From: Nonlabens spongiae
GTDB taxonomy: Bacteria > Bacteroidota > Bacteroidia > Flavobacteriales > Flavobacteriaceae
Reading direction: 5' to 3'
Length of the DNA stretch: 64,000 nt
Assembly: GCF_002117125.1 (NCBI RefSeq)
Contig: NZ_CP019344.1
Coordinates: 3,286,501-3,350,500, forward strand
Position 1 is the stretch's first letter, and each line of letters begins with the position of its first letter. This document shows positions 2,567 to 61,663 of this stretch, piece after piece. The notes beneath the pieces were generated by a model that was given only the letters and a program-made list of their open reading frames with translations, ran no database searches and was not told where the DNA came from. Position numbers and translations under genes: made by a program.

Positions 2567-2974
2567 TTACTGACGAGGTAATGATGATTGTTCCGCTTTC
2601 GCGAAAGCGTAATACCATTCAACAACACAGATTAAAAAGAACCCCAGGCAGTACATCACGAGATCCCATAAAGAGAAACTTGTCCCCAGAACAACAAGTG
2701 CAAATTTATATTGATCTAGGTTTAACCGATAAACCAACTCGAAAAACTGAGCAATTTCTACACAGAAGCTTATAAACAATGCCAGCGATGCAACTGGTAA
2801 TGGCTTCCCATTACTCACTCCCATTATAAATGTGTAAACTAAAATCGTAGCAAGTACATCGCCTAAAAAGGGTCTGATTACAGCATCATTTACATATAAC
2901 GCGATTACCACTTCAGTTACAAATATCACTAGTGTGGCTACTAAATAGTAGTATCTAGGAAATCTCTTAGACAT
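2567..2974 (-). CDS. DUF2809-type small membrane protein
   Basis: 135 residues starting MSKRFPRYYYL. The ATG at 2974 overlaps the stop of the upstream DUF1361 gene by 8 bp, so the two are probably translationally coupled; a longer reading from 3079 would run deep into that gene. About four to five hydrophobic segments are visible (residues 9-27, 38-53, 60-80, 86-120). The sequence ALYVNDAVIRPFLGDVLATILVY matches my memory of DUF2809, whose function is unknown. The C-terminus YYAFAKAEQ is created by a copy of the 16-bp palindrome at 2594, so the tail after the last helix is probably repeat-derived. Last gene of the minus-strand membrane-protein operon. Confidence 0.75.
   Translation of the reverse strand: MSKRFPRYYYLVATLVIFVTEVVIALYVNDAVIRPFLGDVLATILVYTFIMGVSNGKPLPVASLALFISFCVEIAQFFELVYRLNLDQYKFALVVLGTSFSLWDLVMYCLGFFLICVVEWYYAFAKAEQSSLPRQ
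2594..2609. repeat. Palindrome CGCTTTCGCGAAAGCG, site 1
   Basis: Perfect 16-bp palindrome inside the 3' end of the DUF2809 gene, read as AFAKA. Confidence 0.95.
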
Positions 2975-3626
2975 GGAAGAATTTTTTAGAGAGGTAAAGA
3001 GATGCAAGATAGATCCCGCTGAGTCCCAGCATCGCAAGCCATATACGTTTGTTGATGTAGTTGTATTGAAACAAATCAAGTATGTCGTAAAGCAAGCCTC
3101 GAGGATTAAAAACTACATCCCATGAATTCCAGCGGAGCACTCGACCCAGATAAACACCTATAGCGTTTAATATGGAGCAGCTTATGAAAAATAATAACTG
3201 GGTGACTATCGTCTTGTCTGGGAACAGGGTTTTATAAATAAGAAGAACGCTCGCGCTGCCTAGGATAAGCGCACTTAAGCTAAAACTTGATAATATCAAT
3301 GCGTCAAAATAGAATTGAAAGGCAGTCACGTATCGCAAATGAATAAAATCTGTGATGATATAAAAGGAGTTAGGCAAAAACAATAGCCATAGACAACTTG
3401 CTCCATAAACTACAGCAGACTTAATATGTGTAGACCATCTAGGGTTGTTTTGAGATTTGAAACGGTTAATCCAAAACGCTATATAAAAGGGTATGCCAGC
3501 TAGAAAAAGATTCCAGACTAAAAATGAATACCGTAACGATTCCATTAACATTATTCTGAAAAACAACATCGTGAGTGATAAAGTAATAAGGCAGATTAAC
3601 AGCTTATTAGATTTTGATATTTTCAT
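2967..3626 (-). CDS. DUF1361-type membrane protein
   Basis: 219 residues with about six hydrophobic segments. The segment WLLFLPNSFYIITDFIHLR near the middle is the hallmark I associate with DUF1361. No enzymatic motif is visible and the function is unknown. It lies 3 bp after the 98-residue membrane gene and overlaps the next gene by 8 bp, inside a tight operon headed by a winged-helix regulator. ATG at 3626 gives MKISKSNKLLICLITLSL, a plausible positively charged start before the first membrane helix. The pairing with DUF2809 suggests a shared membrane role, an inference from order only. Confidence 0.78.
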   Translation of the reverse strand: MKISKSNKLLICLITLSLTMLFFRIMLMESLRYSFLVWNLFLAGIPFYIAFWINRFKSQNNPRWSTHIKSAVVYGASCLWLLFLPNSFYIITDFIHLRYVTAFQFYFDALILSSFSLSALILGSASVLLIYKTLFPDKTIVTQLLFFISCSILNAIGVYLGRVLRWNSWDVVFNPRGLLYDILDLFQYNYINKRIWLAMLGLSGIYLASLYLSKKFFHV

Positions 3627-3629
3627 GAT

Positions 3630-3926
3630 TTAATCGAGTAAAGAAATAAGATATATAGCGAAAAGGGGAAATGACAGTAGATAGAAACACAAAAGCCACT
3701 CGCTAATGTTCTCTGGTTCAACGATACAGCTGAAAATTACAATTGCAGCTAGTAAGACATTTACCACAATGCAGATCAGCCCAAAAAGCAGAGCAATGTA
3801 GAAAAAAACATCTGCTGCGAGGCGCATTCCTATGATCAGAATAACCGAGCCTGAGATCAGTAAAAGTAGATTTGCAATGCAGACTCTTGTTATTTTAGAA
3901 AGATGGGAGGGAAGGCTATTGATCAT
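3630..3926 (-). CDS. Small membrane protein of unknown function
   Basis: 98 residues beginning MINSLPSHLSKITRV, with three hydrophobic stretches at about 16-36, 40-68 and 76-96. I do not recognise the family. The start at 3926 overlaps the stop of the upstream DUF4173 gene (3916) by 11 bp. The same frame stays open to 4040, but that extension would lie entirely within the upstream gene, so the shorter form is preferred. The overlaps on both sides indicate co-translation with its neighbours. Confidence 0.65.
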   Translation of the reverse strand: MINSLPSHLSKITRVCIANLLLLISGSVILIIGMRLAADVFFYIALLFGLICIVVNVLLAAIVIFSCIVEPENISEWLLCFYLLSFPLFAIYLISLLD

Positions 3927-5316
3927 CTTTATTATTCTGAGCGTTAATACTAGCAGCCACACCATTGTACTCTTGCCAATTGCGATCTTGGTATTCAGCC
4001 AAATCAAATTCAGAAATATATCTAGACCTTCTAAATTCATTCACCTCTGGTAGAAGATCGTATTGCTGGAGCTCTGCAGCATTTTGAGGCAATAGGTTAG
4101 AAAACTGATGATAATCTATAAACTCATTTTCAATATTGTACTTGGTAACTACAGAAGACCAATTGATAAAGGAGAACAAAAGAAGACTCGTGAAACCAAT
4201 GGTCGCATTGCGCCGCAACAAATACACAAAATTGAGTTTACGACTGATCTTAAGATAGGTAGTAAATAACCCGATAACGCATAGGCTCAGATACATTAAG
4301 ACTCCTATTCTCTTAAGGCTCAATCCATACTGGTCTATGTAAATATAGGTCTTGAACAATACAGAAAGGGTAAGTAGTACATTCAGACCTATCCATAAAT
4401 AACTGAGGTTTTTAAGTGTCGTATTTTTTTCTACAAAATTCAAATCACCTCTGAAGAAAATTAAAATCAAAACTATGGCAAGAACGATACTGGCAATGCT
4501 TGCGTAAACACCTGCGTGCACAGCATCAGAAAGTACTGAGGCTGGATACTCCTGAATATTTGAAACAAATACAAATTCTGATATCAGAAATACCACAAGT
4601 AATACATTTAGCGCAATTAGAGAAACCGTTCCCGTTTGAATCTCGTTTTTGATGCTACTAAGCCTATTTGAAATAGAGGTAGATGGTTTCAAACTATTTT
4701 CTGTGCTGAGATCTTTCTCCACCCACTCCTTGATGGTTGCCGTGCGTGAGATATTTGCCGTGATCCATGACCCAAGTATAGCCGTAAAAAACCATAGATA
4801 GTCGATTACTCCTAGATCAATAGCATCAACCCAATTACTAAAAATAGGATTGATCTGATAGTAAACAAAGATGAATATGACCGATAGCCCTAAAGGAATC
4901 AAACTGATCCTGGCAAGTTGTGAGTAGTCTCGATTTTCTCCAGATTCCTGTGGTGTTTTCTCATCTGGATAGAAAACCCCATGAAAGGAACCGAAAACCG
5001 TGGTATAAACCCCATTAAAAAAAGCGAGATAACTGCTTACCTGAGATTGCGCTACGCATCCTATGAATAAAAATGAACTGAAGAAATAAAAGGCGACAGC
5101 CATATTGGATCCATGTAAAGTTACCGCTGCAGCAGATAACAGCATACCTATTCCAGACCACAATATGGACCACTTCTCTTGAATACGTTTGACGTTTTGG
5201 AATAAAATCAGAATAAAGAAGATGGAGAGTAGAAGACAGTTAAGACCCAGACGTTGGTCATAAAATAAAGTGGCAAATGAAATGCCTCCGATTATTGCGA
5301 TGATTTTAGTTTTCAT
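3916..5316 (-). CDS. DUF4173-type polytopic membrane protein
   Basis: 466 residues with roughly ten to twelve hydrophobic segments. The motif YGLSLKRIGVLMYLSLCVIG in the second half is the feature I connect with DUF4173 proteins. The soluble C-terminal part (NEFIDYHQFSNLLPQNAAELQQYD) is typical of Bacteroidota members. Function unknown. The start overlaps the end of the Coq4-like gene (5306) by 11 bp, and the end overlaps the 98-residue gene by 11 bp. The central loop around residues 115-130 and the stretch around 205-225 are hydrophilic and probably face the cytoplasm. Expression is likely controlled with the upstream winged-helix regulator. Confidence 0.75.
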   Translation of the reverse strand: MKTKIIAIIGGISFATLFYDQRLGLNCLLLSIFFILILFQNVKRIQEKWSILWSGIGMLLSAAAVTLHGSNMAVAFYFFSSFLFIGCVAQSQVSSYLAFFNGVYTTVFGSFHGVFYPDEKTPQESGENRDYSQLARISLIPLGLSVIFIFVYYQINPIFSNWVDAIDLGVIDYLWFFTAILGSWITANISRTATIKEWVEKDLSTENSLKPSTSISNRLSSIKNEIQTGTVSLIALNVLLVVFLISEFVFVSNIQEYPASVLSDAVHAGVYASIASIVLAIVLILIFFRGDLNFVEKNTTLKNLSYLWIGLNVLLTLSVLFKTYIYIDQYGLSLKRIGVLMYLSLCVIGLFTTYLKISRKLNFVYLLRRNATIGFTSLLLFSFINWSSVVTKYNIENEFIDYHQFSNLLPQNAAELQQYDLLPEVNEFRRSRYISEFDLAEYQDRNWQEYNGVAASINAQNNKDDQ

Positions 5317-6958: not shown

Positions 6959-6974
6959 CGCTTTCGCGAAAGCG
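6959..6974. repeat. Palindrome CGCTTTCGCGAAAGCG, site 2
   Basis: Perfect copy in the intergenic space between divergent genes. Confidence 0.95.
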
Positions 6975-10027: not shown

Positions 10028-10042
10028 CGCTTTCGCGAAAGC
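10028..10042. repeat. Palindrome near-copy (15 of 16), site 3
   Basis: CGCTTTCGCGAAAGC followed by A instead of G. Intergenic, downstream of the response regulator. Confidence 0.9.
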
Positions 10043-10264
10043 AGAATAGTTCAAAGCTGTATCGTAAACTTTAAGGTTTTAATGTTAAGGGAAATACATC
10101 TTGAAATGGCTGTAAAGGTTTAGTCAAAAAGATTATGTCAACACTTATTTTCAATATAATTATATCTCCATAATCCTATTATTTCCAATAGATTACTATG
10201 TGTAAAGCGTTGATCCTAAATTTACTTTGACACCGGCAATTGAAGTAGGATATTAGCTAGTTAT

Positions 10265-12657: not shown

Positions 12658-12673
12658 CGCTTTCGCGAAAGCG
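12658..12673. repeat. Palindrome CGCTTTCGCGAAAGCG, site 4
   Basis: Perfect copy in the intergenic space; flanking CC and GG extend the dyad to 18 bp. Confidence 0.95.
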
Positions 12674-15700: not shown

Positions 15701-17434
15701 GAGTTTGCGATCGATGACATCCAGATCGTTGCCAACTCGAACACTACCGCACCTGTAGTAACTGGAGACTTTGAAGACCTCTTCATCGATGGGACCTATT
15801 CCCTGCAGAACACGGTAAACGTGGAGGGAAGGTTGAACGTATCAGGCGGAAGCCTTGTGACCAACGACAACCTCACCATGAAGAGCATCAATTACTCGGG
15901 AACGATCAGGACGGCAATACTTGATCCGGTACTCAATGGCGGTAGCATCAACGGAAACGTGACCGTGGAGCAGTTCTACCCGGCAAACAGGGCGTTTAGG
16001 TTTGTGAATAGTCCAGTTTTAAATATAAGCTCAACAATTTTTGACAACTGGCAGGAGGGAGGCAGCAATACACCAGGTTTTGGAACACAGATTACTGGTG
16101 GGACCGCCAGTGATGGCTTTGACCAGAGTACCAGTAACAACCCCTCGGCATTTTTATATGATCCCACCGGGACCAGTGGTACTACGGGCTGGATAGCGAT
16201 GGGAAGTACCCCCTCAGGTACATTTGTCCCCAACCAGACCCCTTTGCTGAGCTCGTTTGGGTTCAGGCTCTTGATACGTGGCGATCGTACGGTATCCCTG
16301 ACCGACCAGAATGCACCGGCTACTTCAACGGTGCTCAGGTCCACCGGTTCACTCGTGACCGGAGACTATACGGTAGATGGAGATATGTTCTCCAGCCAGA
16401 TAGCCTTCGGCGCCGACGGTAGCTTCTATCTGGCTCCAAACCCGTATCAGGCTCAAGTGGATCTTGCACAGGCACTCAATGGGACAAATAGTGAAGACAT
16501 CAACCAGGGAACCTACTGGTTCTACCAGCCAGCCACACAAAACTATGTGGCCTACGACCTTGTTACGGGAGGAGTGCAGAATGGCGTGAGTCAATTTATC
16601 CAGCCGGGCCAGGCATTCTTCGTGCAGACTGACGAGGCGAGCGGTAGCACCGCAGGTTATGCTCCCAGTTTCACCTATACGGAGTTCATGAAAAGTACTG
16701 ACGTCACCGCAACGGCGACCTATAGTCAGCCTGCGGGATCGTACACCATCAGAATGTTCACTCCAGAAACCATGGGTGGAGCCATCGCGACGGATATGGT
16801 CAGAGGTTTTATCAATCCAGGGTTCGCCAACGGCATCGACACGGGTGACGCGCTCAAGATCACCGGTGAGAGCGAGCAACTGGGAATCCTGAGCAACGGG
16901 ACGCTGCTGAGCAACGAGCGCAGGGAGGCATTCATGGACGGTGAGGTCGTACCGCTACAGATCAGCCAGATGGATAACGGTAGCTATAGTTTTGAGCTGA
17001 ACTTCCAGTTGCCAGATCACGAGGTGTATCTTGTGGACAATCACCTAAACACGAGGGTGCTGATCGATCAGAGCCAGATAACGAATTATTCTTTTGATGT
17101 GGACTTAAGCGATGCAGGTAGCTTTGCAGCCGATCGATTCCAGCTGGAGTTTGAAACGGTGACCTTGAGTAGTGGAGATCTCGCTTTCGCGAAAGCGGTA
17201 CAGCTCTACCCAAATCCCGTGACTGGGGATGTGTTGAATATCTCAGGCCTACAGGCCGGAGATGTGGAACTCACCATCACAAACATGCTGGGACAACGCG
17301 TGACTCAATTGAAAAAATCTACAACAAATGGATCTGTTGAGGTTCTGGGGAACGATGCATTTGATGCGGGAGTTTACTTAATCACCATAGTGCAAAATGG
17401 ACAAAGCACGACTAAGCGTTTTATCATCAAATAA
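12773..17434 (+). CDS. Large cell-surface adhesin with SprB and Calx-beta repeats, T9SS sorting domain
   Basis: 1553 residues. Signal peptide MKQLITFISVISMLFVSVDA is followed by an N-terminal domain to about 172. Three SprB-like repeats span about 174-415 (NVNCNGDSTGSLTV, NVTCNGGNDGRITI, GGIDGTVTASVTGG). Three Calx-beta repeats span about 415-762, each with a DYxxxSGTLxF or DYFAVxxxTLNFAG core and a TGTITNND-like end. A long beta-rich region follows, and a T9SS type A sorting domain occupies about 1478-1553 (LYPNPVTGDVLNISGLQAGD to the terminal TKRFIIK). It should be exported by Sec and then T9SS to the surface for adhesion or gliding. Palindrome site 5 encodes LAFAKAV just before the sorting domain. 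From about 14350 to 17150 the DNA is visibly richer in G+C than the gene's ends. Confidence 0.92.
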   Translation: MKQLITFISVISMLFVSVDANSQTVFDLSPETTTDNTPTNVQETVDGITMTVSAITTSGPNTLFIASAPSGFGTVGLAVHSSASQASRETIVSFSSSVDVASINVASGALGSRTWTFTPTGGSNSAVTETRAFDGNHLISLNFTGITAITITSSRAGVDAEQIGVDKVTLAAPTCNLSASITSLTNVNCNGDSTGSLTVTASSGTANYNYSWTRNGSSYTSVSGSSSNSNTISNLPAGVYEVTVEDSNGCTDTTSATITQPTALSATITSQFNVTCNGGNDGRITISPSGGTSPYSYEWNDSQTTATASGLAAGVYSVTVTDALGCQTTANNITVTEPMALSATASGTNPTTPGGIDGTVTASVTGGTGPFTYLWNIGATTETITGLAAGTYTVTVRDRNNCLAADSSVTLTDPKEFSINDSSIAEGNSGTSPITFTVSLSSPAPAGGATVDYATSDDTATSGSDYVPSSGTLSFSVGETSKTIDVSALGDLRVEADETFNLTLSNPTGTNVNIGDATGTGTITNNDSATVTIADVNVNEGSRTATVRLVLNNAVQGGLSVGVSTSDATATAGQDYTAVTSASETFAGTAGEEETLTVSITNDAIVENDETISVAMSNLVPTNSGIDPANINITDTATITVFDNDTATVTIADVSGNEDDGAITVTVTVDNAVDGGFDVNVNTADGTTTTANNDYFAVVNQTLNFAGTAGESETFTITPIADSNIEQNETLTVSMSSLVPVTVSSSDINITDTATVTILNDDFVNGLQVAAMDTVYLIDFDNTVAGVNNGEFEGGGLSPSPASGQLDSNGLRIEGLSDGDTSFGGSHASGDFTRGGSTGGVSTGGLYAFDVSNGGTSDIALGVQPVGSDFTPGAIILKFENRTGSTITDLNIAYEVLVRNNEARGNSITFETGSDFNNTTAVNGLDYETPAATDGIFNTSWRRSLFQTNVSVSIADGAEYYLKWNSDDATGSGNRDEFAIDDIQIVANSNTTAPVVTGDFEDLFIDGTYSLQNTVNVEGRLNVSGGSLVTNDNLTMKSINYSGTIRTAILDPVLNGGSINGNVTVEQFYPANRAFRFVNSPVLNISSTIFDNWQEGGSNTPGFGTQITGGTASDGFDQSTSNNPSAFLYDPTGTSGTTGWIAMGSTPSGTFVPNQTPLLSSFGFRLLIRGDRTVSLTDQNAPATSTVLRSTGSLVTGDYTVDGDMFSSQIAFGADGSFYLAPNPYQAQVDLAQALNGTNSEDINQGTYWFYQPATQNYVAYDLVTGGVQNGVSQFIQPGQAFFVQTDEASGSTAGYAPSFTYTEFMKSTDVTATATYSQPAGSYTIRMFTPETMGGAIATDMVRGFINPGFANGIDTGDALKITGESEQLGILSNGTLLSNERREAFMDGEVVPLQISQMDNGSYSFELNFQLPDHEVYLVDNHLNTRVLIDQSQITNYSFDVDLSDAGSFAADRFQLEFETVTLSSGDLAFAKAVQLYPNPVTGDVLNISGLQAGDVELTITNMLGQRVTQLKKSTTNGSVEVLGNDAFDAGVYLITIVQNGQSTTKRFIIK
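17182..17197. repeat. Palindrome CGCTTTCGCGAAAGCG, site 5
   Basis: Perfect copy in the adhesin gene, read as AFAKA in the linker before the sorting domain. Confidence 0.95.
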
Positions 17435-17884: not shown

Positions 17885-18373
17885 TTAACTTGTAATTACA
17901 ACGCCATCAACAGTTTCTTTTCTGTTTTTTGCATCTTTACATACAACGCTGCTATTCTTGGTACGCATGACATTTAGGTTTTCAACTTTCAATTCACCTA
18001 AGTCTACAGAACTATTGTCAGAAGTTTGTACTACTAGATCATTTTGAAACTTAAAGCGGCTCAAAGAAACTTCTGTATCTCCCTTCACGGCAAGAGCAGA
18101 AACTCTATTTGTATAAATACGGATTCTCAAGTCTTCAAATTTTTTATCATTTAATTGTTTGATGATAAGTGCGCCGTTCTTCACATCGACATTAAGATTT
18201 GTGAGCTGATTTTCCGGAAGATTCATCATTACCTGGCTTTTCGGTGAGTAAATGACTTCCACTTGAGCATCAGTATCGATCATGATACGGTGAAAATCCT
18301 CTACTTCTTGAACGGATTGCGCTTTCGCGAAAGCGACAATTAAAAGGGCGAATACTAAAACTACATTTTTCAT
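17885..18373 (-). CDS. Secreted GIN-domain (DUF2807-like) protein
   Basis: 162 residues. A signal peptide of about 18 residues (MKNVVLVFALLIVAFAKAQS) is followed by a beta-helix-like stretch with a repeated pattern: FHRIMIDTDAQVEVIYSPKS, LNVDVKNGALIIKQL, LRIRIYTNRVSALAVKGDTE, DLVVQTSDNSSVDL. This is the putative auto-transporter head GIN domain (DUF2807), common in Bacteroidota and of unknown role. The product should be periplasmic or at the outer membrane. The AFAKA peptide in the signal region, just before the predicted cleavage, comes from palindrome site 6, so the repeat appears to supply the cleavage-site residues. Confidence 0.8.
   Translation of the reverse strand: MKNVVLVFALLIVAFAKAQSVQEVEDFHRIMIDTDAQVEVIYSPKSQVMMNLPENQLTNLNVDVKNGALIIKQLNDKKFEDLRIRIYTNRVSALAVKGDTEVSLSRFKFQNDLVVQTSDNSSVDLGELKVENLNVMRTKNSSVVCKDAKNRKETVDGVVITS
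18320..18335. repeat. Palindrome CGCTTTCGCGAAAGCG, site 6
   Basis: Perfect copy inside the signal-peptide coding region of the GIN-domain gene, read as AFAKA. Confidence 0.95.
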
Positions 18374-19733: not shown

Positions 19734-21134
19734 TTATTCTTTTATTATGTCAATCTGCGAGAGCTCTGCTTTTTTAATAGCTCCAAAGCCCCCCAGGACA
19801 TTTTGTAAATTTTTAATTCCATTTGCTTTTAAAATACTGGCATAAATCACTGATCGATAGCCTCCAGCGCAATGGATGCTAAATGTTTTTTCAGGATCAT
19901 ACTTCTGTATATCCACATGAATATTGCTCAGCGGGAAGTGATGTACATTCTCCAGGTGAGCGTTTTTAAATTCACCTGGTTTTCTTACATCTGCGGCATA
20001 TTTGATGGCTCCGTTTTCAAGGCCATCCACAAATTCTTGAGCGGTGATATCTTCAATTGTTTCCAGCTCGTAACCTGCATTCTTCCAAGCTTCTATACCC
20101 CCTTTTAAGTATCCTTGAGCGTTGTCATAACCTACGCGAGCTAATCGCGTAACAGCCTCTTCTTCACGACCGTCAGGAACAACTAGTATGATTTTCTGAT
20201 CTATATTTTCTATGAGTGCACCTACCCAAGGAGCAAACTGGCCATCCAGTCCTATAAACCAAGAGCCAGGTATACTACCTGCGGTATATTCTTGAGGCGA
20301 CCGTACGTCCAAAACTAAAAAGTCAGCATCATCTGCAAGTGCCTTGAATGATTTTGCGTTAATTGGGGAGGTTCCTCGCGAGATGATCTCATCGATACTG
20401 GAATTTACTCCCTTGTTCATCCACACGTTTTTAGGAAAATAGGCGGGTGGGGGAGCGATGCCGGTCGTTACTTCTTTGATGAAATCTTCCTTGGACAGAT
20501 CAGTCGCCAGTGCGTAATTAGTTTTCTTTTGATTTCCCAACGTGTCGCTGGTCTCACTGCTCATATTTTTACCACATGCACTTCCCGCTCCATGCGCTGG
20601 GTAAATGGTGATATCATCGGGTAGCGGCATAACAATATTACGCAGTGAGTCATATAAATGCCCTGCTAGATCTTCTTTGCTTAAGTCAGATTTTACAGCG
20701 AGGTCGGGCCGGCCGACATCGCCAATAAAAAGAGTATCTCCAGTAAATAACGCTTCTTCCTTGCCATCTTCGTTTCTTAATAGATAGCAAGACGATTCCA
20801 TGGTATGACCTGGAGTGTGTAGTAATTGCAAAGTGATATTGCCTAGATTGAAAGTTTGAAGGTGTTCCGCTTTCGCGAAAGCGTAACTAGTCACAGCCTC
20901 TGGTCCGATAACTATAGTAGCGCCAGTTTTATCTGCTAGATCAACGTGGCCTGAGACAAAATCTGCATGGAAATGGGTTAGAAAAATATATTTGAACTTC
21001 ACGCCATCTTCATTTGCGCGATCGATGTATGGCTGCACTTCACGCAATGGGTCTATGATAGCTGCCTCACCTTCTGAGGCTATGTAATAGGTTCCCTGTG
21101 CAAGACATTTAGTGTAATACTGCTCTAGGATCAT
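19734..21134 (-). CDS. Metallo-beta-lactamase/rhodanese fusion, persulfide dioxygenase-like
   Basis: 466 residues. The N-terminal metallo-hydrolase domain (1-250) has THFHADFVSGH (His54, His56, Asp58), HTPGHTMESSCYLL and TGDTLFIGDVGRPDL, the layout of ETHE1/CstB-type iron persulfide dioxygenases. The first rhodanese domain (about 265-355) has VVPDGREEEA at the active-site loop and lacks the catalytic Cys. The second (about 370-455) keeps it in SIHCAGGYRS. Expected role: oxidation of glutathione or similar persulfide to sulfite, with the active rhodanese feeding or shuttling sulfur. Palindrome site 7 encodes YAFAKAEH inside the catalytic domain near residue 87. The single-domain rhodanese follows by 2 bp. 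Confidence 0.88.
   Translation of the reverse strand: MILEQYYTKCLAQGTYYIASEGEAAIIDPLREVQPYIDRANEDGVKFKYIFLTHFHADFVSGHVDLADKTGATIVIGPEAVTSYAFAKAEHLQTFNLGNITLQLLHTPGHTMESSCYLLRNEDGKEEALFTGDTLFIGDVGRPDLAVKSDLSKEDLAGHLYDSLRNIVMPLPDDITIYPAHGAGSACGKNMSSETSDTLGNQKKTNYALATDLSKEDFIKEVTTGIAPPPAYFPKNVWMNKGVNSSIDEIISRGTSPINAKSFKALADDADFLVLDVRSPQEYTAGSIPGSWFIGLDGQFAPWVGALIENIDQKIILVVPDGREEEAVTRLARVGYDNAQGYLKGGIEAWKNAGYELETIEDITAQEFVDGLENGAIKYAADVRKPGEFKNAHLENVHHFPLSNIHVDIQKYDPEKTFSIHCAGGYRSVIYASILKANGIKNLQNVLGGFGAIKKAELSQIDIIKE
20868..20883. repeat. Palindrome CGCTTTCGCGAAAGCG, site 7
   Basis: Perfect copy inside the metallo-hydrolase domain coding region, read as AFAKA. Confidence 0.95.
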
Positions 21135-25837: not shown

Positions 25838-25853
25838 CGCTTTCGCGAAAGCG
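25838..25853. repeat. Palindrome CGCTTTCGCGAAAGCG, site 8
   Basis: Perfect intergenic copy between ffh and the outer-membrane protein gene. Confidence 0.95.
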
Positions 25854-29951: not shown

Positions 29952-30365
29952 TCACTCATCGTGAGCCTGATCCTCATGACCTAGTTTCCAGTCCAGGTAC
30001 TTATGTAGATCAGTATCGATCCAGCCAGTGACTATGGTAAGAAAAGTCATATCATCCAAATAGCCTAAACCTGGTATAAAATCTGGAATAAGATCAAAGG
30101 GGCTTACCACATAAATAAATGTAGCTGCAATTGCAGAAATGGTAAACCATGGCACTTGCCTGTATACGCCAGCTCGATAGTCTTTTACCATCATGACCAT
30201 GATCTCATAGAGTTTTGTGTAGCGTTTTAAGGTCTTTATGCCTCTAAAGAGACGAGATAGCTTTGATTCTTGTTTCATGACGCGATCCACGTCTTCTACG
30301 GTGGTGTTTTGCGTAGCTTCCATCGCATAATCCTCATCGGGATTTAAAAATTCTTTCCAACTCAT
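29952..30365 (-). CDS. YkvA-family (DUF1232) membrane protein
   Basis: 137 residues. DUF1232 core: [42 protein letters not shown], with the hallmark [12 protein letters not shown] charged N-terminal region of about 60 residues precedes it. The biochemical role of the family is unknown. The ATG overlaps the stop of the VOC gene by 4 bp. A terminator follows at 29889-29918, so this is the last gene of the ClpP-VOC-YkvA unit. Confidence 0.9.
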
Positions 30366-30778
30366 TTTGCAAATATTTGTTTGAAATCCCGAAACGATTT
30401 AAACTCGAGTGCGTTTCCGCTAGGATCTTTGAAAAACATCGTAGCTTGCTCTCCAGTCTGACCTTCAAAACGGGTATAGGGCTCGATGATGAACTCAACG
30501 CCTTTGGATTGTATCGCTTTCGCGAAAGCGTGAAAATCTTCCCACTCCAGTACTACACCAAAATGCGGCACCGGCACAGACTTGCCATCCACGCCATTGT
30601 AATCTGGTTCAGGAGTATTTTCTGCAACATGTATGACCAGCTGGTGACCAAAAAAGTCAAAGTCCACCCAGTGGTCAGAACTGCGCCCTTCCTTCAAACC
30701 CAGCGTGTCGCGATAAAAGTCGCGAGTAGTCGTGATTTCCTTTACGGGAATGGCAAGATGGAAGGGCGTCAATTTCAT
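30362..30778 (-). CDS. VOC-family (glyoxalase-like) protein
   Basis: 138 residues with two beta-alpha-beta-beta-beta modules. [22 protein letters not shown] opens the first and [20 protein letters not shown] the second, ending [15 protein letters not shown]. His7, the Glu near the end and other VOC metal positions appear present, so a metal-dependent enzyme is possible; the substrate is unknown. Palindrome site 9 supplies AFAKA in a helix of the second module where family members have variable residues. Overlaps the downstream YkvA-type gene by 4 bp. Confidence 0.88.
30515..30530. repeat. Palindrome CGCTTTCGCGAAAGCG, site 9
   Basis: Perfect copy inside the VOC gene, read as AFAKA. Confidence 0.95.
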
Positions 30779-32897: not shown

Positions 32898-32913
32898 CGC
32901 TTTCGCGAAAGCG
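32898..32913. repeat. Palindrome CGCTTTCGCGAAAGCG, site 10
   Basis: Perfect intergenic copy between the alpha/beta hydrolase and Rho-N-like genes. Confidence 0.95.
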
Positions 32914-36549: not shown

Positions 36550-37182
36550 ATGCTTGAAAAAGAGATCAAAACAGCCGTAGATCGTGGGGATATGTTACCG
36601 CTCATGGAAGAGTTCTACACCATACAAGGAGAAGGTTATCATACCGGGCGAGCGGCCTATTTTATAAGAGTGGGAGGTTGCGACGTGGGTTGCCACTGGT
36701 GTGATGTAAAGGAGAGCTGGGATCCAGCTAAGCACCCACCTACAGAGACGAGTAAAATTGTTGAAAACGCTGCCAAATACAGCAAAACCATCGTCGTTAC
36801 AGGTGGCGAGCCGCTCACTTGGGATATGAATCCGTTGACGAGTCAGCTCAAGGCAAAAGACTTGCAGGTTCACATTGAAACCAGCGGAGCTTATCCACTT
36901 ACGGGAACTTGGGACTGGATTTGTCTAAGTCCCAAAAAAGTAAAAATGCCACTTCCCGAAGCTTATGAGGCGGCACACGAGCTTAAAGTGATTGTATATA
37001 ACCGTCATGATCTCGCTTTCGCGAAAGCGGAATCCCAAAAAGTAAATCCAGACTGCAAATTATTTCTTCAACCAGAATGGTCTGTACGTGAAAAGATAAT
37101 ACCACTCATCACCGATTTTGTGATGCAAAATCCTGAATGGCAAGTCTCTTTGCAAACACATAAATACTTAAATATTCCGTAA
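36550..37182 (+). CDS. queE: 7-carboxy-7-deazaguanine synthase
   Basis: 210 residues, a short radical-SAM enzyme of queuosine precursor synthesis. Seen: EEFYTIQGEGYHTGRAAYFIRVGGCDVGCHWCD, with the Cys cluster CDVGCHWC and the substrate-binding start, then VVTGGEPLTWD, VHIETSGAYPL and WICLSPKKVKMPL. Length and motif order fit the QueE family. Palindrome site 11 encodes LAFAKAES late in the protein, between two strands. Other queuosine genes are not in the window. The -7 box lies almost at the ATG. Confidence 0.95.
   Translation: MLEKEIKTAVDRGDMLPLMEEFYTIQGEGYHTGRAAYFIRVGGCDVGCHWCDVKESWDPAKHPPTETSKIVENAAKYSKTIVVTGGEPLTWDMNPLTSQLKAKDLQVHIETSGAYPLTGTWDWICLSPKKVKMPLPEAYEAAHELKVIVYNRHDLAFAKAESQKVNPDCKLFLQPEWSVREKIIPLITDFVMQNPEWQVSLQTHKYLNIP
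37014..37029. repeat. Palindrome CGCTTTCGCGAAAGCG, site 11
   Basis: Perfect copy inside queE, read as AFAKA. Confidence 0.95.
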
Positions 37183-41038: not shown

Positions 41039-41054
41039 CGCTTTCGCGAAAGCG
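41039..41054. repeat. Palindrome CGCTTTCGCGAAAGCG, site 12
   Basis: Perfect intergenic copy between the DUF6588-like gene and mdh. Confidence 0.95.
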
Positions 41055-43413: not shown

Positions 43414-44082
43414 ATGTCTTTATTGAAAAATTTATTTTCTCGCTTTCGCGCGGTCGCTGAGCGTAGTCGAAGTGAAAGTGAGAACTCCACAAAAATCCTT
43501 GATGAAGATGATACCATGAAAAAATTTTTAATTGTAGGCTTAGGAAACATAGGTCCTAAGTATGCCGAAACTCGTCATAATATAGGCTTCAAGATTGTAG
43601 ATGAGATCGCATCAATGAAGGAGGCGGCATTTGAAACCAAAAAGCTGGGGGATATTGTGGCAATTAAGCATAAAGGGAAAAGTGTATTACTTCTCAAGCC
43701 TAGTACTTACATGAATCTGAGCGGAAAAGCAATAAAATACTATATGCAGCAAGAAGGCATTGCCATCGATCAGATCTTGGTAATTACTGATGATCTTAAT
43801 TTACCTTTTGGGACGTTGCGCATGAAGGGAAAAGGAACTGATGGTGGTCATAATGGTTTGAAAGACACTCAAATAACGCTTAATACACCAAAATACCCGC
43901 GTTTGAGATTTGGGATTTCAGATGACTTCAGCAAAGGTCGTCAAGTAAATTATGTGCTGGGAGAGTGGAGCGATGAAGAGCGCAAGTCTCTTCCAGAACG
44001 ACTGGATACTGCTGCAAAAATGGCTTTGACCTTCACCCACGCCGGTCTTGCAAATACCATGAATGAATATAACGGGAAGTAA
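43414..44082 (+). CDS. pth: Peptidyl-tRNA hydrolase, with N-terminal extension
   Basis: 222 residues. Releases peptides from stalled peptidyl-tRNA. The catalytic core starts MKKFLIVGLGNIGPKYAETRHNIGF (catalytic His in ETRHNIGF), then LLKPSTYMNLSGKAI, ITDDLNLPFGTLRMKGKGTDGGHNGLK. The gene can start at 43516 (core only), but a 34-residue extension MSLLKNLFSRF...DEDDT is open, and I recall similar short extensions in other flavobacterial Pth, so 43414 is kept. The extension contains a palindrome site (43441-43480), read as RFR...ES, interrupted by a 24-bp REP-like insert that adds eight residues in frame. Confidence 0.9.
   Translation: MSLLKNLFSRFRAVAERSRSESENSTKILDEDDTMKKFLIVGLGNIGPKYAETRHNIGFKIVDEIASMKEAAFETKKLGDIVAIKHKGKSVLLLKPSTYMNLSGKAIKYYMQQEGIAIDQILVITDDLNLPFGTLRMKGKGTDGGHNGLKDTQITLNTPKYPRLRFGISDDFSKGRQVNYVLGEWSDEERKSLPERLDTAAKMALTFTHAGLANTMNEYNGK
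43441..43480. repeat. Palindrome split by an insert, site 13
   Basis: CGCTTTCGC (43441-43449) and GAAAGTG (43474-43480) match the two parts of the 16-bp palindrome with one mismatch, separated by a 24-bp insert. Inside the N-terminal extension of pth. Confidence 0.75.
43450..43473. repeat. 24-bp REP-like insert in pth
   Basis: The insert contains GGTCGCTGAGCG and GTCGAAGT, a pattern I associate with interspersed repeats of flavobacteria. A related GGTCGCT...GTCGACGAAGT stretch lies at 52465-52489. Length is a multiple of three, so the reading frame is kept. Confidence 0.6.
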
Positions 44083-46719: not shown

Positions 46720-47991
46720 ATGTTACAAATTGCCGAGATACGTGAGCATAAAGACGCTTTCGCGAAAGCGTTACAAAAAAGAAACATAGACGCCAAATTA
46801 ATGCTGGAAAGTGCCATAACCATTGATGAGAAACGTCGTGGTTTGCAGGCAGAACTTGATGAAACCCTTGCCCAAAGCAACAAGATTTCAAAGCAGATAG
46901 GCGAGTTGTTCAAATCTGGGAAACCTCAAGAAGCTAACGAGCTGAAGGCCCAAACCGGCGAGTTGAAGGAGCGTTCAAAGGTTTTGAGCGAGGAACTCAA
47001 CAAAGCAGTAGAAGAATTACAGGTGGTTCTTTATAACATTCCCAATATTCCTCAAGAATCAGTCCCTGCTGGGAATAGCGATGAGGATAATGAGGTGGTT
47101 TCTGAACACGGCGAGGTGCCTGAGCTCCATGCGGGCGCACAACCTCATTGGGAGCTGGTCAAAAAATACGACATCATCGATTTTGAATTGGGGAACAAGA
47201 TAACCGGAGCTGGCTTTCCCGTCTACAAAAATAAGGGAGCGCGATTGCAACGTGCGTTGATCAATTATTTTCTAGATAAAAACACCGAAGCAGGTTACCA
47301 AGAAATGCAGGTGCCTCATTTAGTGAATGAAGCAAGTGGTTATGGTACGGGTCAGCTTCCAGATAAAGAAGGGCAAATGTATCATGTAGGGAATGAAGAT
47401 CTCTATTTAATCCCAACGGCTGAGGTGCCTATAACAAATTTATACAGAGGAGACTTGTTAGAAGAGGCAGATCTACCTATTGCAATGACGGGTTACACAC
47501 CTTGTTTCAGACGTGAGGCTGGAAGTTATGGGAGCGATGTGCGAGGCTTGAATAGATTGCACCAGTTTGATAAAGTAGAAATTTTGCGCATCGAGCATCC
47601 CGATAAAAGTGATGGAGCGCTAGATGCCATGGTGGTGCATGTGAAAGGGATTCTAGATGAATTAAAGCTGCCCTATAGAATCTTGAGATTATGCGGCGGT
47701 GATTTAGGATTTACATCTACATTAACTTATGATTTTGAAATCTACAGCACGGCACAACAAAAATGGCTAGAAGTGAGTAGCGTGTCCAATTTTAAAACCT
47801 TTCAGGCTAACAGACTTAAACTAAGATTCAGAAATGGAAAAAAGGGCACGGAACTCGCGCATACGCTTAACGGTAGTGCCTTAGCTTTGCCACGTATCCT
47901 CGCTGGAATTTTAGAGAATTATCAGCGTGAGGACGGTATTGAAATCCCTGAAGTTTTAAGGCCCTATTGTGGTTTTGACAAGATTTCTTGA
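46720..47991 (+). CDS. serS: Serine--tRNA ligase
   Basis: 423 residues from MLQIAEIREHKDAFAKALQK. N-terminal tRNA-binding coiled coil (about 25-110); class II catalytic core with motif 2 TPCFRREAGSYGSDVRGLNR, IPTAEVPITNLY, and motif 3 HTLNGSALALPRILAGILENYQ. The frame is open to 46675 but that extension is not conserved. Palindrome site 14 encodes AFAKAL in the N-terminal helix, where other SerRS have variable residues. A hairpin terminator follows at 48023. Confidence 0.97.
   Translation: MLQIAEIREHKDAFAKALQKRNIDAKLMLESAITIDEKRRGLQAELDETLAQSNKISKQIGELFKSGKPQEANELKAQTGELKERSKVLSEELNKAVEELQVVLYNIPNIPQESVPAGNSDEDNEVVSEHGEVPELHAGAQPHWELVKKYDIIDFELGNKITGAGFPVYKNKGARLQRALINYFLDKNTEAGYQEMQVPHLVNEASGYGTGQLPDKEGQMYHVGNEDLYLIPTAEVPITNLYRGDLLEEADLPIAMTGYTPCFRREAGSYGSDVRGLNRLHQFDKVEILRIEHPDKSDGALDAMVVHVKGILDELKLPYRILRLCGGDLGFTSTLTYDFEIYSTAQQKWLEVSSVSNFKTFQANRLKLRFRNGKKGTELAHTLNGSALALPRILAGILENYQREDGIEIPEVLRPYCGFDKIS
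46755..46770. repeat. Palindrome CGCTTTCGCGAAAGCG, site 14
   Basis: Perfect copy inside serS, read as AFAKA in the N-terminal helical arm. Confidence 0.95.
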
Positions 47992-50344: not shown

Positions 50345-50977
50345 TTAATCCAAGAACGATTTTAATTCTTTTGTGCTGTTGATGTTCTCACCATTATAAA
50401 CGAGCCTCCAGCCCATAGATTTTGATAGGACATAAATATTGCTCAGTTCAGACAATAGTCGGTTCTGGGCATTATTCATTTCTGGATCAGCGAGTACTTC
50501 CATTCTGATTTTTTCTGTTATTCCCTTTTTTACCTTATTGTAATCCTGAGCGCTGAATTTATTAAGCGGATAATCCTTCACATCGTAGAATCTGATATCT
50601 GGATTGATACTTATTTCAGGTGGTGGTAATTGCGTAAGGTGGATCGTTTTGTTCTCGGGATCCAATTCGTATTTGAGTTGCCTGAGGTCGTAAGAAATCT
50701 GCGCTTTTGCCTCTGATATGATGAGTGCTCTTTTTGGCACGCCAAAGACATCCCAGTAATCCCACCCAAACTGTCTGGTATTTTCATAAGAAAAAACTTT
50801 AGCGTACTGAATCTCGGTCACAACAAGTTTGCTTGTGTGCTCGATTTGCTTTTGTAACAGACTCGTTTGTTCTATCAGGCGACCCTCATCCTGTCGACTT
50901 TTTAACCAGCTGGAGACACCATAAAATGCTACTGCGACTAATACGACAAACAGTATAAACTTCAGCTTTCTACTCAT
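50345..50977 (-). CDS. DUF4230 membrane-anchored protein
   Basis: 210 residues. N-terminal anchor LKFILFVVLVAVAFYGVSSWL, then a coiled segment and the DUF4230 core: TSKLVVTEIQYAKVFSYEN, RALIISEAKAQISYDLRQLKYELDPENKTIHLTQLPPPEI. Role unknown. The ATG overlaps the stop of the GSCFA gene by 4 bp. The end nearly touches the opposing lipoprotein gene, with no terminator visible between them. Confidence 0.85.
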   Translation of the reverse strand: MSRKLKFILFVVLVAVAFYGVSSWLKSRQDEGRLIEQTSLLQKQIEHTSKLVVTEIQYAKVFSYENTRQFGWDYWDVFGVPKRALIISEAKAQISYDLRQLKYELDPENKTIHLTQLPPPEISINPDIRFYDVKDYPLNKFSAQDYNKVKKGITEKIRMEVLADPEMNNAQNRLLSELSNIYVLSKSMGWRLVYNGENINSTKELKSFLD

Positions 50978-51891
50978 AATAAGGACAGGTTTGGGTATTT
51001 CTCCAGCAAATCTCTTCTCGCGACTTCTACGTTTTCTCTGTGCAGATCAGGATTTTTAGGCCGGTGGGCCGCAAGTCTTTGATATTTTTCTACGACGTTC
51101 ATCGTGTCGTAGTTGTTTTTGTTGATTCCGCTTTCGCGAAAGCATAACCACACATAATCCGTGCCCGTTTCATTTAAATGGATCATATCTGGTTTGTAGA
51201 AACGGTAGTCCCGCAGCTCGTCCATAACAATCTCATAGGCAGGAAAATATTGCAGACCTTGATCAACTTGATGCTGAATGGCATCATGCAAGCGTGATTT
51301 GCTACGCATATTCTCAACATGTCCATCTTTGAGGTGTCGCACTGGTGAAAGTGTGATACAAATCGTGCAGTCTGGATTGAGTTTCTCAACCTGTTCTACA
51401 ATAGATTCAAGATGCAAATTGATCTGATTTGCCGTGAGCAACTGTTTGCTGAAGGCTGACTGGGGCTGTTTGTGGCAATTGGCCACAAACATATCCCGAT
51501 CTAAATGTCTGTAAACCCAAGCAGTGCCCAGTGTGATGAAAATATGACTTGAGTTTTTGATCCTTTCACGCATCAACGGTAATGCCTTATTCAGATTACT
51601 GACGGTTTCTTCTTCATTGGAACCATTGAGATCACTATGCGCAAAATAGCTGAAGGTGCTTTCAACGTCTTCCTCAGTAAACTTCTCATCATTGACACTT
51701 CGTTCTAACAAAGTTGCCAGACTCGCTGGATTGAAAATGATCCCAAACGGATTAATCAGTGTGTCAAAACCGTAGTACTGCAATTTCTTACCAATGTTTT
51801 CAGCAAAACAGCTTCCTAAACACAAAATTTTAGACTCATAATCTATTTGTGGCACAAGCGGCTGGATGGGTACTATGGTAGAGAGTTTCAT
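50974..51891 (-). CDS. GSCFA domain protein
   Basis: 305 residues. The name-giving motif is KILCLGSCFAENIGKKLQYYGF near the start, followed by INPFGIIFNPASL, FITLGTAWVYRHLD and the late KPDMIHLNETGTDYVW. GSCFA proteins are SGNH-hydrolase relatives of unknown substrate; the GSC Ser and the DxxH pair are visible. Palindrome near-copy site 15 encodes CFRES next to the conserved C-terminal region, in the FRES frame. Overlaps DUF4230 by 4 bp. Confidence 0.9.
   Translation of the reverse strand: MKLSTIVPIQPLVPQIDYESKILCLGSCFAENIGKKLQYYGFDTLINPFGIIFNPASLATLLERSVNDEKFTEEDVESTFSYFAHSDLNGSNEEETVSNLNKALPLMRERIKNSSHIFITLGTAWVYRHLDRDMFVANCHKQPQSAFSKQLLTANQINLHLESIVEQVEKLNPDCTICITLSPVRHLKDGHVENMRSKSRLHDAIQHQVDQGLQYFPAYEIVMDELRDYRFYKPDMIHLNETGTDYVWLCFRESGINKNNYDTMNVVEKYQRLAAHRPKNPDLHRENVEVARRDLLEKYPNLSLL
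51129..51143. repeat. Palindrome near-copy (15 of 16), site 15
   Basis: CGCTTTCGCGAAAGC followed by A. Inside the GSCFA gene, read as (C)FRES rather than AFAKA. Confidence 0.92.
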
Positions 51892-55786: not shown

Positions 55787-55802
55787 CGCTTTCGCGAAAG
55801 CG
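55787..55802. repeat. Palindrome CGCTTTCGCGAAAGCG, site 16
   Basis: Perfect copy in the intergenic space between divergent alaS and the M23 peptidase gene. Confidence 0.95.
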
Positions 55803-58708: not shown

Positions 58709-58762
58709 AGATCAAATTATTATTTCCTATCCGTAAGGGAGTTAGATGTTGTTATGCATATC

Positions 58763-58790
58763 GCCCATAGCACATAGCGCCCAGCGCTCA
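58763..58790. repeat. Heptanucleotide repeat, four imperfect units
   Basis: GCCCATA, GCACATA, GCGCCCA, GCGCTCA in phase just upstream of the stop of lnt, in the gap between convergent genes. Confidence 0.65.
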
Positions 58791-58792
58791 GT

Positions 58793-60400
58793 TCACTTCC
58801 GCTTCATAGTGCCGCGTTTGAACACGCTAAATAGAAAGGTGAAGATGGCTATAAACCCAGCAATACGCACGATATAATCGCCGTGCTTAGTGTAAAAAGT
58901 TGTTTCGTCGTTTAATAATACCGAGCCGTTGAGTGTTCCTTTTTTCTCGTAGCCTAACTGTTGCTTGATCTCGCCACGATGGTCAATGATCGCGCTGATT
59001 CCGGTATTGGCACTTCTAGCAACATAGCGTCTATTTTCTACAGCCCGGAGTCGTGCCAGACTCAAATGTTGTTTGTGCCCTTGAGTATTTCCCCACCAGC
59101 CGTCGTTTGTAATGATGGCGAGCATGTTTGCGCCATTGTTCACATAATCGGTGACATATTCCCCATAAACACTTTCATAGCAAATAATGGGAGCTGCGGC
59201 GATGGAATCTTGAATTTTAAAAATAGAACGCTCCTTCTGCGTAGTTTTAGTAGCTACCGTACCGCCCATATCCAGCATCACGTCACCCAATATGGGTTCA
59301 AGAATGGATTTATAGGGAAAGTTCTCTACGCCTACCACAAGTTTCGATTTGTGATAGAGTTCAACCGGCTGATTTTGTGTGACCAGCATTGCGCTGTTGT
59401 ACACATCATAAAATGTTGTGCCGTCAGGAGCAGTATTGCTTTGAGAGGTTTTCCTAGCGGAATCGTAAAAAATATCAAACAAAGAAACTCCACCTATAAA
59501 TCCAGCTTTGCCGTGGTCATTGACCAAGGTTTTTAGCTTGATGACGGCATTATCGCGTTCCACTTGAGAAATTCTAAGATCTTCTGCTAGAACAGTTTCT
59601 GGAGCGATAATCGCGTCCGTATCGGGTTGCAGTCCGGATTTGATGAGCGTGATCAGAGAATCCGTTATCGCTGCGTTTTCAGTTTCAAACTTCTCTGAGT
59701 ATGGATCAACATTAGGCTGTATGATCAATACATTAGCTACTGATTTTGAGGAAAGGTTATTTTCTTTAGGTTTTATTATAAAGGAAGTAACTATAGGGAT
59801 CAGAACGATCCCAATTGCTAGTATAAGCCCGATGTTTTTCTTAGTAAAATTCTCTTTCCCGCTTTCGCGAAAGCGTAACCACCATAAAAAAACAGCAATA
59901 TTCACCAGCCAAACCCACAAAGAGCCACCAAATGTTCCTGTAAACTCATACCACTGGATCCAGTCTACGTATTCACTGAATCCATTGCCTAAATTGAGCC
60001 AAGGCCAAGAAAAATCCCAGTGCAAGTGTAGGTACTCAAATAAAATCCACAGACTGGCAAGAAAGGAAAGTGCCGCGCCTTGAGTAGTTCTTCTTGCGAC
60101 AAGATGATAAAACAGAAACACCAGCGACATGAGCAATGCGTTTACTAAAACGGCAAAAAACATCCCAAATGGCGTTGAAAAATACAACCATGAAGTGGTC
60201 GCAAAATTCCAAATAACAAAACTGAGATAGGCGAGCAGCCATACTTTTCTGCCAGGTTTCTTTGAATCGCCTAGTCTTATATTTCTTTCCACGAGAAGAA
60301 GTGGGACAAACGCAACAAATAGTAAACCTGCAAAGCCATAAGTGGGCCACGCCAGCCATAAAAGCAAACCGCTCGCGACAGAAAGGAGGAGATTTTTCAA
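58793..60400 (-). CDS. lnt: Apolipoprotein N-acyltransferase
   Basis: 535 residues. Six or so N-terminal membrane helices, then a nitrilase-like domain: Glu in IIAPETVLAED, Lys in ELYHKSKLVVGVE, Cys in APIICYESVYGEYV, and the typical LAIITNDGWWGNTQGHKQHLSLARLRAVENRRYVARSANTG. A final membrane helix follows. Adds the third acyl chain to lipoproteins in the inner membrane. Palindrome site 17 encodes LRFRESGK at the end of the transmembrane part, in the FRES frame. It starts 63 bp after the stop of the PorV2-like gene. Confidence 0.96.
   Translation of the reverse strand: MKNLLLSVASGLLLWLAWPTYGFAGLLFVAFVPLLLVERNIRLGDSKKPGRKVWLLAYLSFVIWNFATTSWLYFSTPFGMFFAVLVNALLMSLVFLFYHLVARRTTQGAALSFLASLWILFEYLHLHWDFSWPWLNLGNGFSEYVDWIQWYEFTGTFGGSLWVWLVNIAVFLWWLRFRESGKENFTKKNIGLILAIGIVLIPIVTSFIIKPKENNLSSKSVANVLIIQPNVDPYSEKFETENAAITDSLITLIKSGLQPDTDAIIAPETVLAEDLRISQVERDNAVIKLKTLVNDHGKAGFIGGVSLFDIFYDSARKTSQSNTAPDGTTFYDVYNSAMLVTQNQPVELYHKSKLVVGVENFPYKSILEPILGDVMLDMGGTVATKTTQKERSIFKIQDSIAAAPIICYESVYGEYVTDYVNNGANMLAIITNDGWWGNTQGHKQHLSLARLRAVENRRYVARSANTGISAIIDHRGEIKQQLGYEKKGTLNGSVLLNDETTFYTKHGDYIVRIAGFIAIFTFLFSVFKRGTMKRK
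59860..59875. repeat. Palindrome CGCTTTCGCGAAAGCG, site 17
   Basis: Perfect copy inside lnt, read as FRES in a loop between membrane helices and the catalytic domain. Confidence 0.95.
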
Positions 60401-60463
60401 ACGAATTCTTTGAAGGGCTAAATTAAGGGTATCAGAACGTTTGCCCTAATTTCAGCATTTGGT

Positions 60464-61663
60464 TTATCTTGAAAAGACAGAAAGATCTACATTCAGCGAA
60501 AACACATTTGAATACAGCGCCTCGCTGCTGTCGCCTATGTCCGTAAGTGCATAATCCACGGCAATGCCCTTGTATTTGAAGCCTACCCCTATATTGGGCT
60601 GCATGGTGAGGCTCTCGCTACCATCTAGCTGATCGATGTTTTGGAAATTCCCCACACCAGCTCTCACAAATACCAGATCTAGAAATCCATATTGCAATCC
60701 CACCGCCGGCGTCGCACTAAAAGAGCTGCTCGAGATCACATCGTTAGTCTGTATAAAACGCATGTTGAGGTCGACTTCTGCCGTGAGGACATGATCGTAA
60801 CGTATGGTAAACGTGCGCGCAATCCCTGCTTGCAGCTTGGGCAGAGTGATTTCTGTCGTTTCTGGTAGTTCTTGATTTTGACCTTCTACCGCGCCGCTTA
60901 TAGTTGCATACTCGTCATCATCGATCGTCCATGAATTATAGGTGGTCGTAATATCACGCGCCATAAAACCGATCTCGTAACCACCTCTACGGAACTGCAA
61001 TCCCGCATCAAAACCAAATCCCCATGATGAAGCAAAATCTCCTATCACCCTCCGGATCACCTTGACATTCCCTCCATAAGAGAAACCGTCCAGTTTTGCG
61101 CGACGGGCATATGAAAAGGCAAAGGCCCAATCTGCATTTGAGAACGTAGAGATGCGATCGTAGTTGATGTTACCCTGATCGTCTATTAGTTGGGTAGTAT
61201 TGAGAATATCATCTACTGAAAACCGGATCACTGAAATCCCAAAAGCACTATCGTCATCGATGGGTTTTGCGTAGCTGCCGTAATTATATTGAGCGATATT
61301 GGCAAAATAACTGGCGTGCATGAGCGAGACTTCCTGTTGTTCCAGTTGCATGAGTCCAGCGGGATTCCAGTAGGTGCTGTTTGCATTGCCACTGCTCGCA
61401 ACTACCGCATTGCTCATACCCAGCGCCGCAGCGTCGACTCCTATGTTTAGGAATTCGTTTGAGTAGGCTCTTGAGGTTTGCGCTTTTCCTCCTAGGCTTA
61501 TTCCGATAAACAGGACTAAAAGTAGGTACGCTTTCGCGAAAGCGGAATCATAACAGCTATTGTGCAAGCTCTGGCGGACAGGCGCAATCGCGAGACCCAC
61601 AACAATAAAAAGAAACGACAAATATTTTTTCAATACGCTACGCAATGCAGATGCAAAGATCAT
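60464..61663 (-). CDS. PorV/PorQ-family outer-membrane protein (PorV2-like)
   Basis: 399 residues as written. FadL-like/PorV core: QTSRAYSNEFLNIGVDAAALGM, NSTYWNPAGLMQLEQQEVSL, then paired beta strands to the terminal LNVDLSVFSR. Homologues act with the type IX secretion system; this one matches those placed beside lnt in flavobacteria from memory. The start is unclear. A signal-like KKYLSFLFIVVGLAIAP stretch (possible TTG start at 61633) is followed by palindrome site 18 encoding SAFAKA and then a second signal-like YLLLVLFIGISLGGKAQ. A TTG at 61564 could start just before the second. Two signal peptides in a row suggest the palindrome sits in an altered N-terminus. Confidence 0.78.
   Translation of the reverse strand: MIFASALRSVLKKYLSFLFIVVGLAIAPVRQSLHNSCYDSAFAKAYLLLVLFIGISLGGKAQTSRAYSNEFLNIGVDAAALGMSNAVVASSGNANSTYWNPAGLMQLEQQEVSLMHASYFANIAQYNYGSYAKPIDDDSAFGISVIRFSVDDILNTTQLIDDQGNINYDRISTFSNADWAFAFSYARRAKLDGFSYGGNVKVIRRVIGDFASSWGFGFDAGLQFRRGGYEIGFMARDITTTYNSWTIDDDEYATISGAVEGQNQELPETTEITLPKLQAGIARTFTIRYDHVLTAEVDLNMRFIQTNDVISSSSFSATPAVGLQYGFLDLVFVRAGVGNFQNIDQLDGSESLTMQPNIGVGFKYKGIAVDYALTDIGDSSEALYSNVFSLNVDLSVFSR
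61529..61544. repeat. Palindrome CGCTTTCGCGAAAGCG, site 18
   Basis: Perfect copy at the N-terminus of the PorV2-like gene, read as AFAKA between two signal-like segments. Confidence 0.95.

Follow-up and report, generated by a model that had tools for sequence, protein, structure and literature searches.

A palindrome spread across Nonlabens and Dokdonia genomes, tentatively read as a self-DNA signature for uptake or for recombination after uptake

The window, the whole 64-kb stretch of Nonlabens spongiae DNA analyzed here, carries 15 perfect copies of the 16-mer palindrome CGCTTTCGCGAAAGCG. Intergenic copies lie at 2594..2609, 6959..6974, 12658..12673, 25838..25853, 32898..32913, 41039..41054 and, upstream of alaS, 55787..55802. 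Within genes, the palindrome reads AFAKA in a large T9SS sorting domain gene (17182..17197), close to the 5′ end of gene 17885-18373 (−) (18320..18335), in a metallo-beta-lactamase-fold/rhodanese gene (−; 20868..20883), in gene 30362-30778 (−) (30515..30530), in the queE-like gene 36550-37182 (+) (37014..37029), close to the start of serS (46755..46770), and in a PorV2-like gene (−; 61529..61544); it reads RFRES in an lnt-like gene (−; 59860..59875). Two copies are altered only at the last base, one intergenic (10028..10043) and one within gene 50974-51891 (−) (51129..51144). At the start of pth (peptidyl-tRNA hydrolase; 43441..43480), an 18th copy is split at its centre, with CGCTTTCGCG followed by a 24-nt REP-like insert and then by a slightly altered right half (AAAGTG). 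When we scanned the window allowing at most three mismatches, we obtained 17 matches compared to 0.18 expected from shuffles, a number reached by 0 of 100 shuffles, and found no copies with two or three mismatches in the window. These results confirm the 18 copies (15 perfect, two end-mismatched, and one split) reported by an earlier sequence-only reading, together with its claim that they far exceed chance. Elsewhere in the window, ORF 63289-63837 (+) gave a weak match to a Y1/IS200-like transposase (PF01797, E 3e-7) of the REP-associated type.

The sequence-only reading had proposed counting the palindrome across the genome and in relatives. The 3.39-Mb genome that contains the window holds 671 perfect copies, compared to 0 for the reversed control, and its 14-kb second contig holds two; the palindrome is thus neither a product of chance nor confined to the window. 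All 23 Nonlabens genomes searched carry it, at 180–737 copies per genome, which speaks against an assembly artefact as its source. Among the short named loci compared, Nonlabens ulvanivorans gave the best match to proteins of the window. Beside these, 35 of 36 other genomes had 0 copies and one had four. All 18 Dokdonia genomes searched are also rich, with 138–711 copies each. A scan of 397 genomes of the family found a match in 48, comprising six rich genomes and 42 with 1–13 copies, and none in the other 349. The six rich genomes were four Nonlabens, one Dokdonia (G250, 630 copies), and G234, the sole genome of its genus searched, which has 153 copies of the 16-mer and 408 of its 14-mer core. 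Two genera plus this one further genome carry the palindrome densely. In a gyrB tree from which nine Nonlabens rows were left out, Nonlabens made up one clade of rich genomes and Dokdonia with G234 a second, and the tree did not resolve how the two join. Aligning a sample of Nonlabens DNA against 307 kb from Dokdonia gave nothing at or above 80%, whereas other genera reached 83%; no recent exchange between Nonlabens and Dokdonia is seen in this sample. Strong genome-wide over-representation common to related species, as in the uptake sequences DUS and USS, is thus present here.

Outside the rich genomes, copies are sporadic. Among viral contigs of unspecified host, 41 stretches on 30 contigs contained a copy, at 0.09–1.7 per 10 kb. 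We also compared 15 stretches around copies in 11 genomes of other genera: 14 share homologous DNA that is ~71% to 99.9% alike, and the remaining stretch (G352b) matched none of them. In the one such stretch that was annotated (L263), this DNA encodes Cd/Zn and Cu P-type ATPases, a CzcA/CusA pump, a TolC-like protein, and a multicopper oxidase; no transfer genes were seen in this annotated metal-resistance stretch, and we hence call it an island. Island copies often occupy the same places across genera, and motif-less relatives mostly differ there by substitutions (126 pairwise comparisons the same, 101 different, and 48 not spanned, counts that are not independent and come from stretches picked for holding copies). 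In G145 and G328, island copies are broken by ~90 bp. Searching for dialects of the palindrome in 20-kb samples from 18 genomes without the dense motif, we saw no palindrome of at least 12 bases three times; one 12-mer palindrome occurred twice, and the inner 10-mer TTTCGCGAAA occurred twice each in G146 and G380. A 20-kb stretch of G234 (L241) contains separate short repeats, ACAACACATAACGC-like (five times) and ACAACGGTCTC (six times).

The strict part of the site is an inner 14-bp palindrome, GCTTTCGCGAAAGC, usually capped to 16. Across 484 kb of the window's own genome, 99 copies were perfect, and 15, 7, and 5 copies had one, two, and three mismatches, respectively; 10 of the 15 one-mismatch copies were off at an outermost base; the ratio of end-mismatched to perfect copies was higher in G005, G010, and G022. 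The sequence-only reading had noted TTCC before and GGAA after many copies. This holds only in part: the flank signal consists of an A/C-rich arm of ~18 nt on either side, depleted of G on the outward-read strand at both genic and intergenic copies. The arms do not covary, and an extended hairpin was rejected on the finding that matches between arm positions at equal distance were no commoner than in shuffled pairs (the five larger sets gave mean z values of −0.47 to 0.01, and G234, which contributed only 7 sites, gave 0.82). Core and arms together thus look more like a symmetric site for a protein, ~52 bp in length, than like a longer hairpin.

By simple gene models, copies within genes numbered 54 of 93 in G000, 15 of 38 in G004, and 13 of 35 in G008; genes cover 79% of the window and 85–86% of the G004 and G008 stretches, so copies are enriched between genes. 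Intergenic copies occupy co-directional, convergent, and divergent gaps. Because many copies are genic, all gap orientations are used, and copies are not restricted to gene ends or promoters, we rejected an intrinsic terminator or an operator, in agreement with the earlier judgment that this is not a regulon operator. The 82 genic copies read AFAKA (64), RFRES (14), or LSRKR (4), and 17 of them fall within the first tenth of their gene; near gene starts (18320 and others), AFAKA may resemble the end of a signal peptide.

In two genome pairs, accessory DNA contained 2 core sites in 63.5 kb, compared to 135 in 676.5 kb of shared DNA (p 0.001, with paired genomes non-independent); this comparison and the placement null described below used the first 190 kb of G004, 198 kb of G008, and 28–180 kb of G010. 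The one phage checked, Nonlabens phage P12024S, had 0 copies in 35.7 kb. Depletion from accessory DNA and from this phage, together with a density near one copy per 4–5 kb, would fit a recombination, repair, or self-marking signal, either Chi-like or a mark that lets a defence system spare self DNA. Chi has a density similar to that of the palindrome, but it is short and directional and the site here is long and symmetric, and a protective mark should favour phages that bear it, whereas the single phage checked has none. We regard this explanation as unlikely.

To see how sites arise, we compared related genomes. Between G004 and G008, 31 of 34 alignable sites in 200 kb were intact on both sides, and the three others comprised one point change and two copies with a 21-bp insert at the centre. 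Over 280 kb of the same pair, the 14 core letters agreed at 54 of 55 aligned places, a letter count that is blind to inserts, compared to ~47% expected at the overall divergence of 5.3% (0.947 to the 14th power). In the G005/G010 pair, 12 of the 19 sites that aligned were intact, six differed by point changes, and one differed by inserted sequence. Sites arise via point changes in place. As with DUS and USS, the motif accumulates through point changes in place and is less frequent in coding DNA and in DNA gained recently.

The queE-like site at 37014 was examined across the genus. Its 16 bases were intact in 18 of 22 Nonlabens genomes; the remaining four each differed by a single base. Majority shares for the motif codons were 1.0, 1.0, 0.91, 1.0, and 1.0, compared to an average of 0.52 (maximum 0.85) for 48 other conserved four-fold codons and 0.74 for 59 two-fold codons, five of which reached at least 0.95. 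The eight homologues found in other genera have RFAEEQ at the motif position (KFAEEQ in one), with no length difference. Frozen codons in Nonlabens and FAEEQ elsewhere argue that the DNA word, not the peptide, is kept and that it was made there by substitution. These alignments point to a DNA-level force stronger than protein sequence.

A mobile palindromic element of the REP or Rickettsia-palindrome type, inserting copies of itself, could account for hundreds of near-identical copies, and other small repeats do insert at the palindrome centre. However, motif-less homologous sites are mostly equal in length and differ by substitutions, and even spacing and the use of one frame in 64 of 82 genic copies are not insertion-like. 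A Y1 transposase was found in 9 of 23 genomes and was absent from the rich genomes G004, G008, G019, G022, G439, and G234. With Y1 missing from six rich genomes and copies not gained by insertion, we rejected a REP element with a RAYT, and we give the mobile-element explanation as a whole a negligible probability. When both strands were scanned, the 21-bp REP-like element CCTGCCTGCCG(A/G)(A/T)CAGGCAGG occurred 13 times in Nonlabens stretches (six in G004, six in G008, one in G022, and none in G000, G002, G005, or G010). All 13 occurrences were at the exact palindrome centre (for example, L184 8714 and L198 6500), and in two of them the left palindrome half had one mismatch in its inner eight letters. 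G004 and G008 carry this element yet have no Y1 transposase match. The 24-nt insert that splits the copy at 43441-43480 is of a second kind, and it is read through in frame at the start of pth.

Candidate readers and machinery did not follow the motif. ComEC (PF03772) was present in 20 of 20 genomes, motif-bearing or not, and its equal presence without the motif means that it is not diagnostic. ParB was present in all 22 genomes searched, none of which had a ParB paralog limited to rich genomes; extra copies of ~600 aa occurred in rich and non-rich genomes alike. On these grounds we rejected a parS/Noc-type site with a dedicated ParB-family reader. The PF00145 C5-methylase, the only methylase family searched, was absent from 8 of 16 rich genomes, and a link to methylation, raised by the sequence-only reading, is unsupported for the C5 class. 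A methylation-linked iterated palindrome, in the style proposed for HIP1, would share with our site its occurrence both within and between genes, and HIP1 likewise takes inserts at a fixed place (PMC4390886, excerpt), but with half of the rich genomes examined lacking this methylase we consider such a role very unlikely. None of ComEC, ParB, Y1 transposase, and C5-methylase explains the motif distribution.

We next consider spacing. In the window's own genome, 114 gaps (98 between the first 100 copies listed and 16 in the window, including its two one-mismatch copies, with one gap >40 kb dropped) had a mean of 4156 bp, a CV of 0.44, and a gamma shape of 5.1, and only 1 of 114 was shorter than 1 kb, compared to 21% expected for a random process. 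The CV was lower than for random placement that kept the genic/intergenic mix in G004 (p 0.0002), G008 (p 0.0006), and the window (p 0.0002). In Dokdonia G439, 98 gaps had a CV of 0.61 after one gap >30 kb was dropped, with two shorter than 1 kb compared to 20% expected; for the 14-mer core in G234, 99 gaps had a CV of 0.68, with 0 shorter than 1 kb compared to 12.6 expected. Spacing is thus quasi-regular, beyond a gene-map null. Density was roughly flat, at 2–8 copies per 20 kb in 15 stretches along the window's own chromosome. Two regions of this genome (1–24 kb and 261–305 kb; L203-L206) contained one- and two-mismatch copies but no perfect ones, and coding density at 261–305 kb was low by simple gene models; these regions are possibly islands with decaying sites.

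Even spacing and flat density would suit a chromosome-organizing lattice, in which the ~52-bp dyads, one about every 4 kb, would be bound by a dimeric nucleoid-associated protein that shapes or partitions the chromosome, with selection keeping coverage even. The perfect symmetry of core and arms and the long retention of the queE site at one place also favour this explanation. Selection on each of ~670 sites, however, would need to outweigh protein change, and among the 22 genomes we did not see the obvious candidate, an additional ParB/Noc-type protein found in rich genomes only. Sites for a nucleoid protein are the main rival to an uptake signature, and we rate them a real possibility, though well short of probable.

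We favour, tentatively and with somewhat less than even confidence, a palindromic genome-wide self-DNA signature that most likely serves to signal DNA uptake, or recombination once DNA has been taken up. From the observed counts, spacing, arms, in-place origin, conservation, and accessory depletion, we infer a reader, an uptake step, and a drive that might work as follows. A putative symmetric DNA-binding protein would read the ~52-bp site (14-bp core plus symmetric G-poor arms), and motif-carrying DNA would be preferentially taken up and recombined. Chance near-motifs would then become motifs via point mutation and biased homologous replacement. A second copy on one fragment would add nothing, and copies would consequently repel each other at kilobase range. 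In-place origin, depletion from new and coding DNA, even spacing, and an apparently protein-overriding force would all fit such a biased uptake or recombination drive by analogy with known systems. Work on H. influenzae and on Neisseria describes such a molecular drive (PMC7811141 and PMC1939737, excerpts). The uptake sequences of H. influenzae, which are explained by this drive, are reported to be underrepresented in newly acquired and coding DNA, as our site is (PMC7811141, excerpt).

In favour of uptake, third-codon positions diverged less between G004 and G008 within 600 bp of a site than at distances above 1.5 kb (p 0.0675 and 0.0185 by shifting), and the corresponding dip between G005 and G010 was weak and not significant (p 0.14 and 0.28). 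Against uptake, the dip could reflect site retention in slow regions. The weakness of this dip, the lack of recent exchange seen between Nonlabens and Dokdonia, and the symmetry of palindrome and arms, which favours a dimeric reader and would fit a nucleoid role as well, limit our confidence in the uptake signature. The established uptake sequences are not known to be palindromic, which also counts against the uptake reading. An uptake, recombination, or chromosome-organizing signal, as the sequence-only reading had suggested, is still the best class.

To our knowledge, few genome-wide signature sequences have a known function. Neither the 16-mer nor its 12-mer core appears in any paper of the literature searched, outside which most subscription papers fall, and among the matches listed on palindromes in Flavobacteria, Nonlabens, or Dokdonia and on uptake sequences in Flavobacteria, no title or abstract start describes it. 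We think it a little better than an even chance that the palindrome represents an unreported kind of signal, a palindromic, dimer-read site of ~52 bp that forms a quasi-regular ~4-kb lattice across whole chromosomes of two marine genera, has enough force to change amino acids in a conserved enzyme, and acts either as a symmetric sequence for self-recognition (uptake) among Bacteroidota or as a chromosome-wide nucleoid lattice. The Nonlabens/Dokdonia palindrome is long, fully symmetric, and evenly spaced, and in queE, the one gene examined genus-wide, it freezes synonymous codons and goes with altered residues. Named Nonlabens and Dokdonia strains exist, which makes tests of binding, uptake, and nucleoid association directly feasible. 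If uptake proves true, the palindrome would open self-recognition in Bacteroidota gene transfer to study; Riemerella columbina shows a preference for self DNA for which no motif has been established (PMC7965970). If uptake does not prove true, the palindrome would point to a hitherto unknown chromosome organizer.

The parS/Noc, matS, and SlmA sites are palindromic, are of about this length, and are read by dimeric proteins, but they number tens of copies in limited regions, compared to 671 copies genome-wide here; in the 22 genomes searched, no ParB paralog was limited to the rich ones. The earlier likening to HIP1 in style was upheld: like HIP1 of cyanobacteria, which SDR5 enters at a fixed place (PMC4390886, excerpt), our site is a highly iterated palindrome of unassigned function that occurs within and between genes and into which small repeats insert at one defined position. 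It is not HIP1 itself, as its sequence is CGCTTTCGCGAAAGCG and not GCGATCGC; HIP1 is an 8-mer linked to methylases, whereas our palindrome has double that length, shows quasi-regular spacing, and is not tied to a C5-methylase. DUS (Neisseriaceae), for which dialects are described (PMC3630211, excerpt), and USS (Pasteurellaceae) resemble it in having hundreds of copies common to at least a genus, a lower frequency in coding DNA and in DNA gained recently, and an origin by point changes (PMC7811141, PMC1939737, and PMC3630211, excerpts). Unlike them, the site described here is a palindrome of ~14–16 bp, perfectly symmetric with symmetric arms and known from sequence alone, and its mean spacing is ~4 kb, compared to ~1 kb for the USS of H. 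influenzae (PMC7811141, excerpt).
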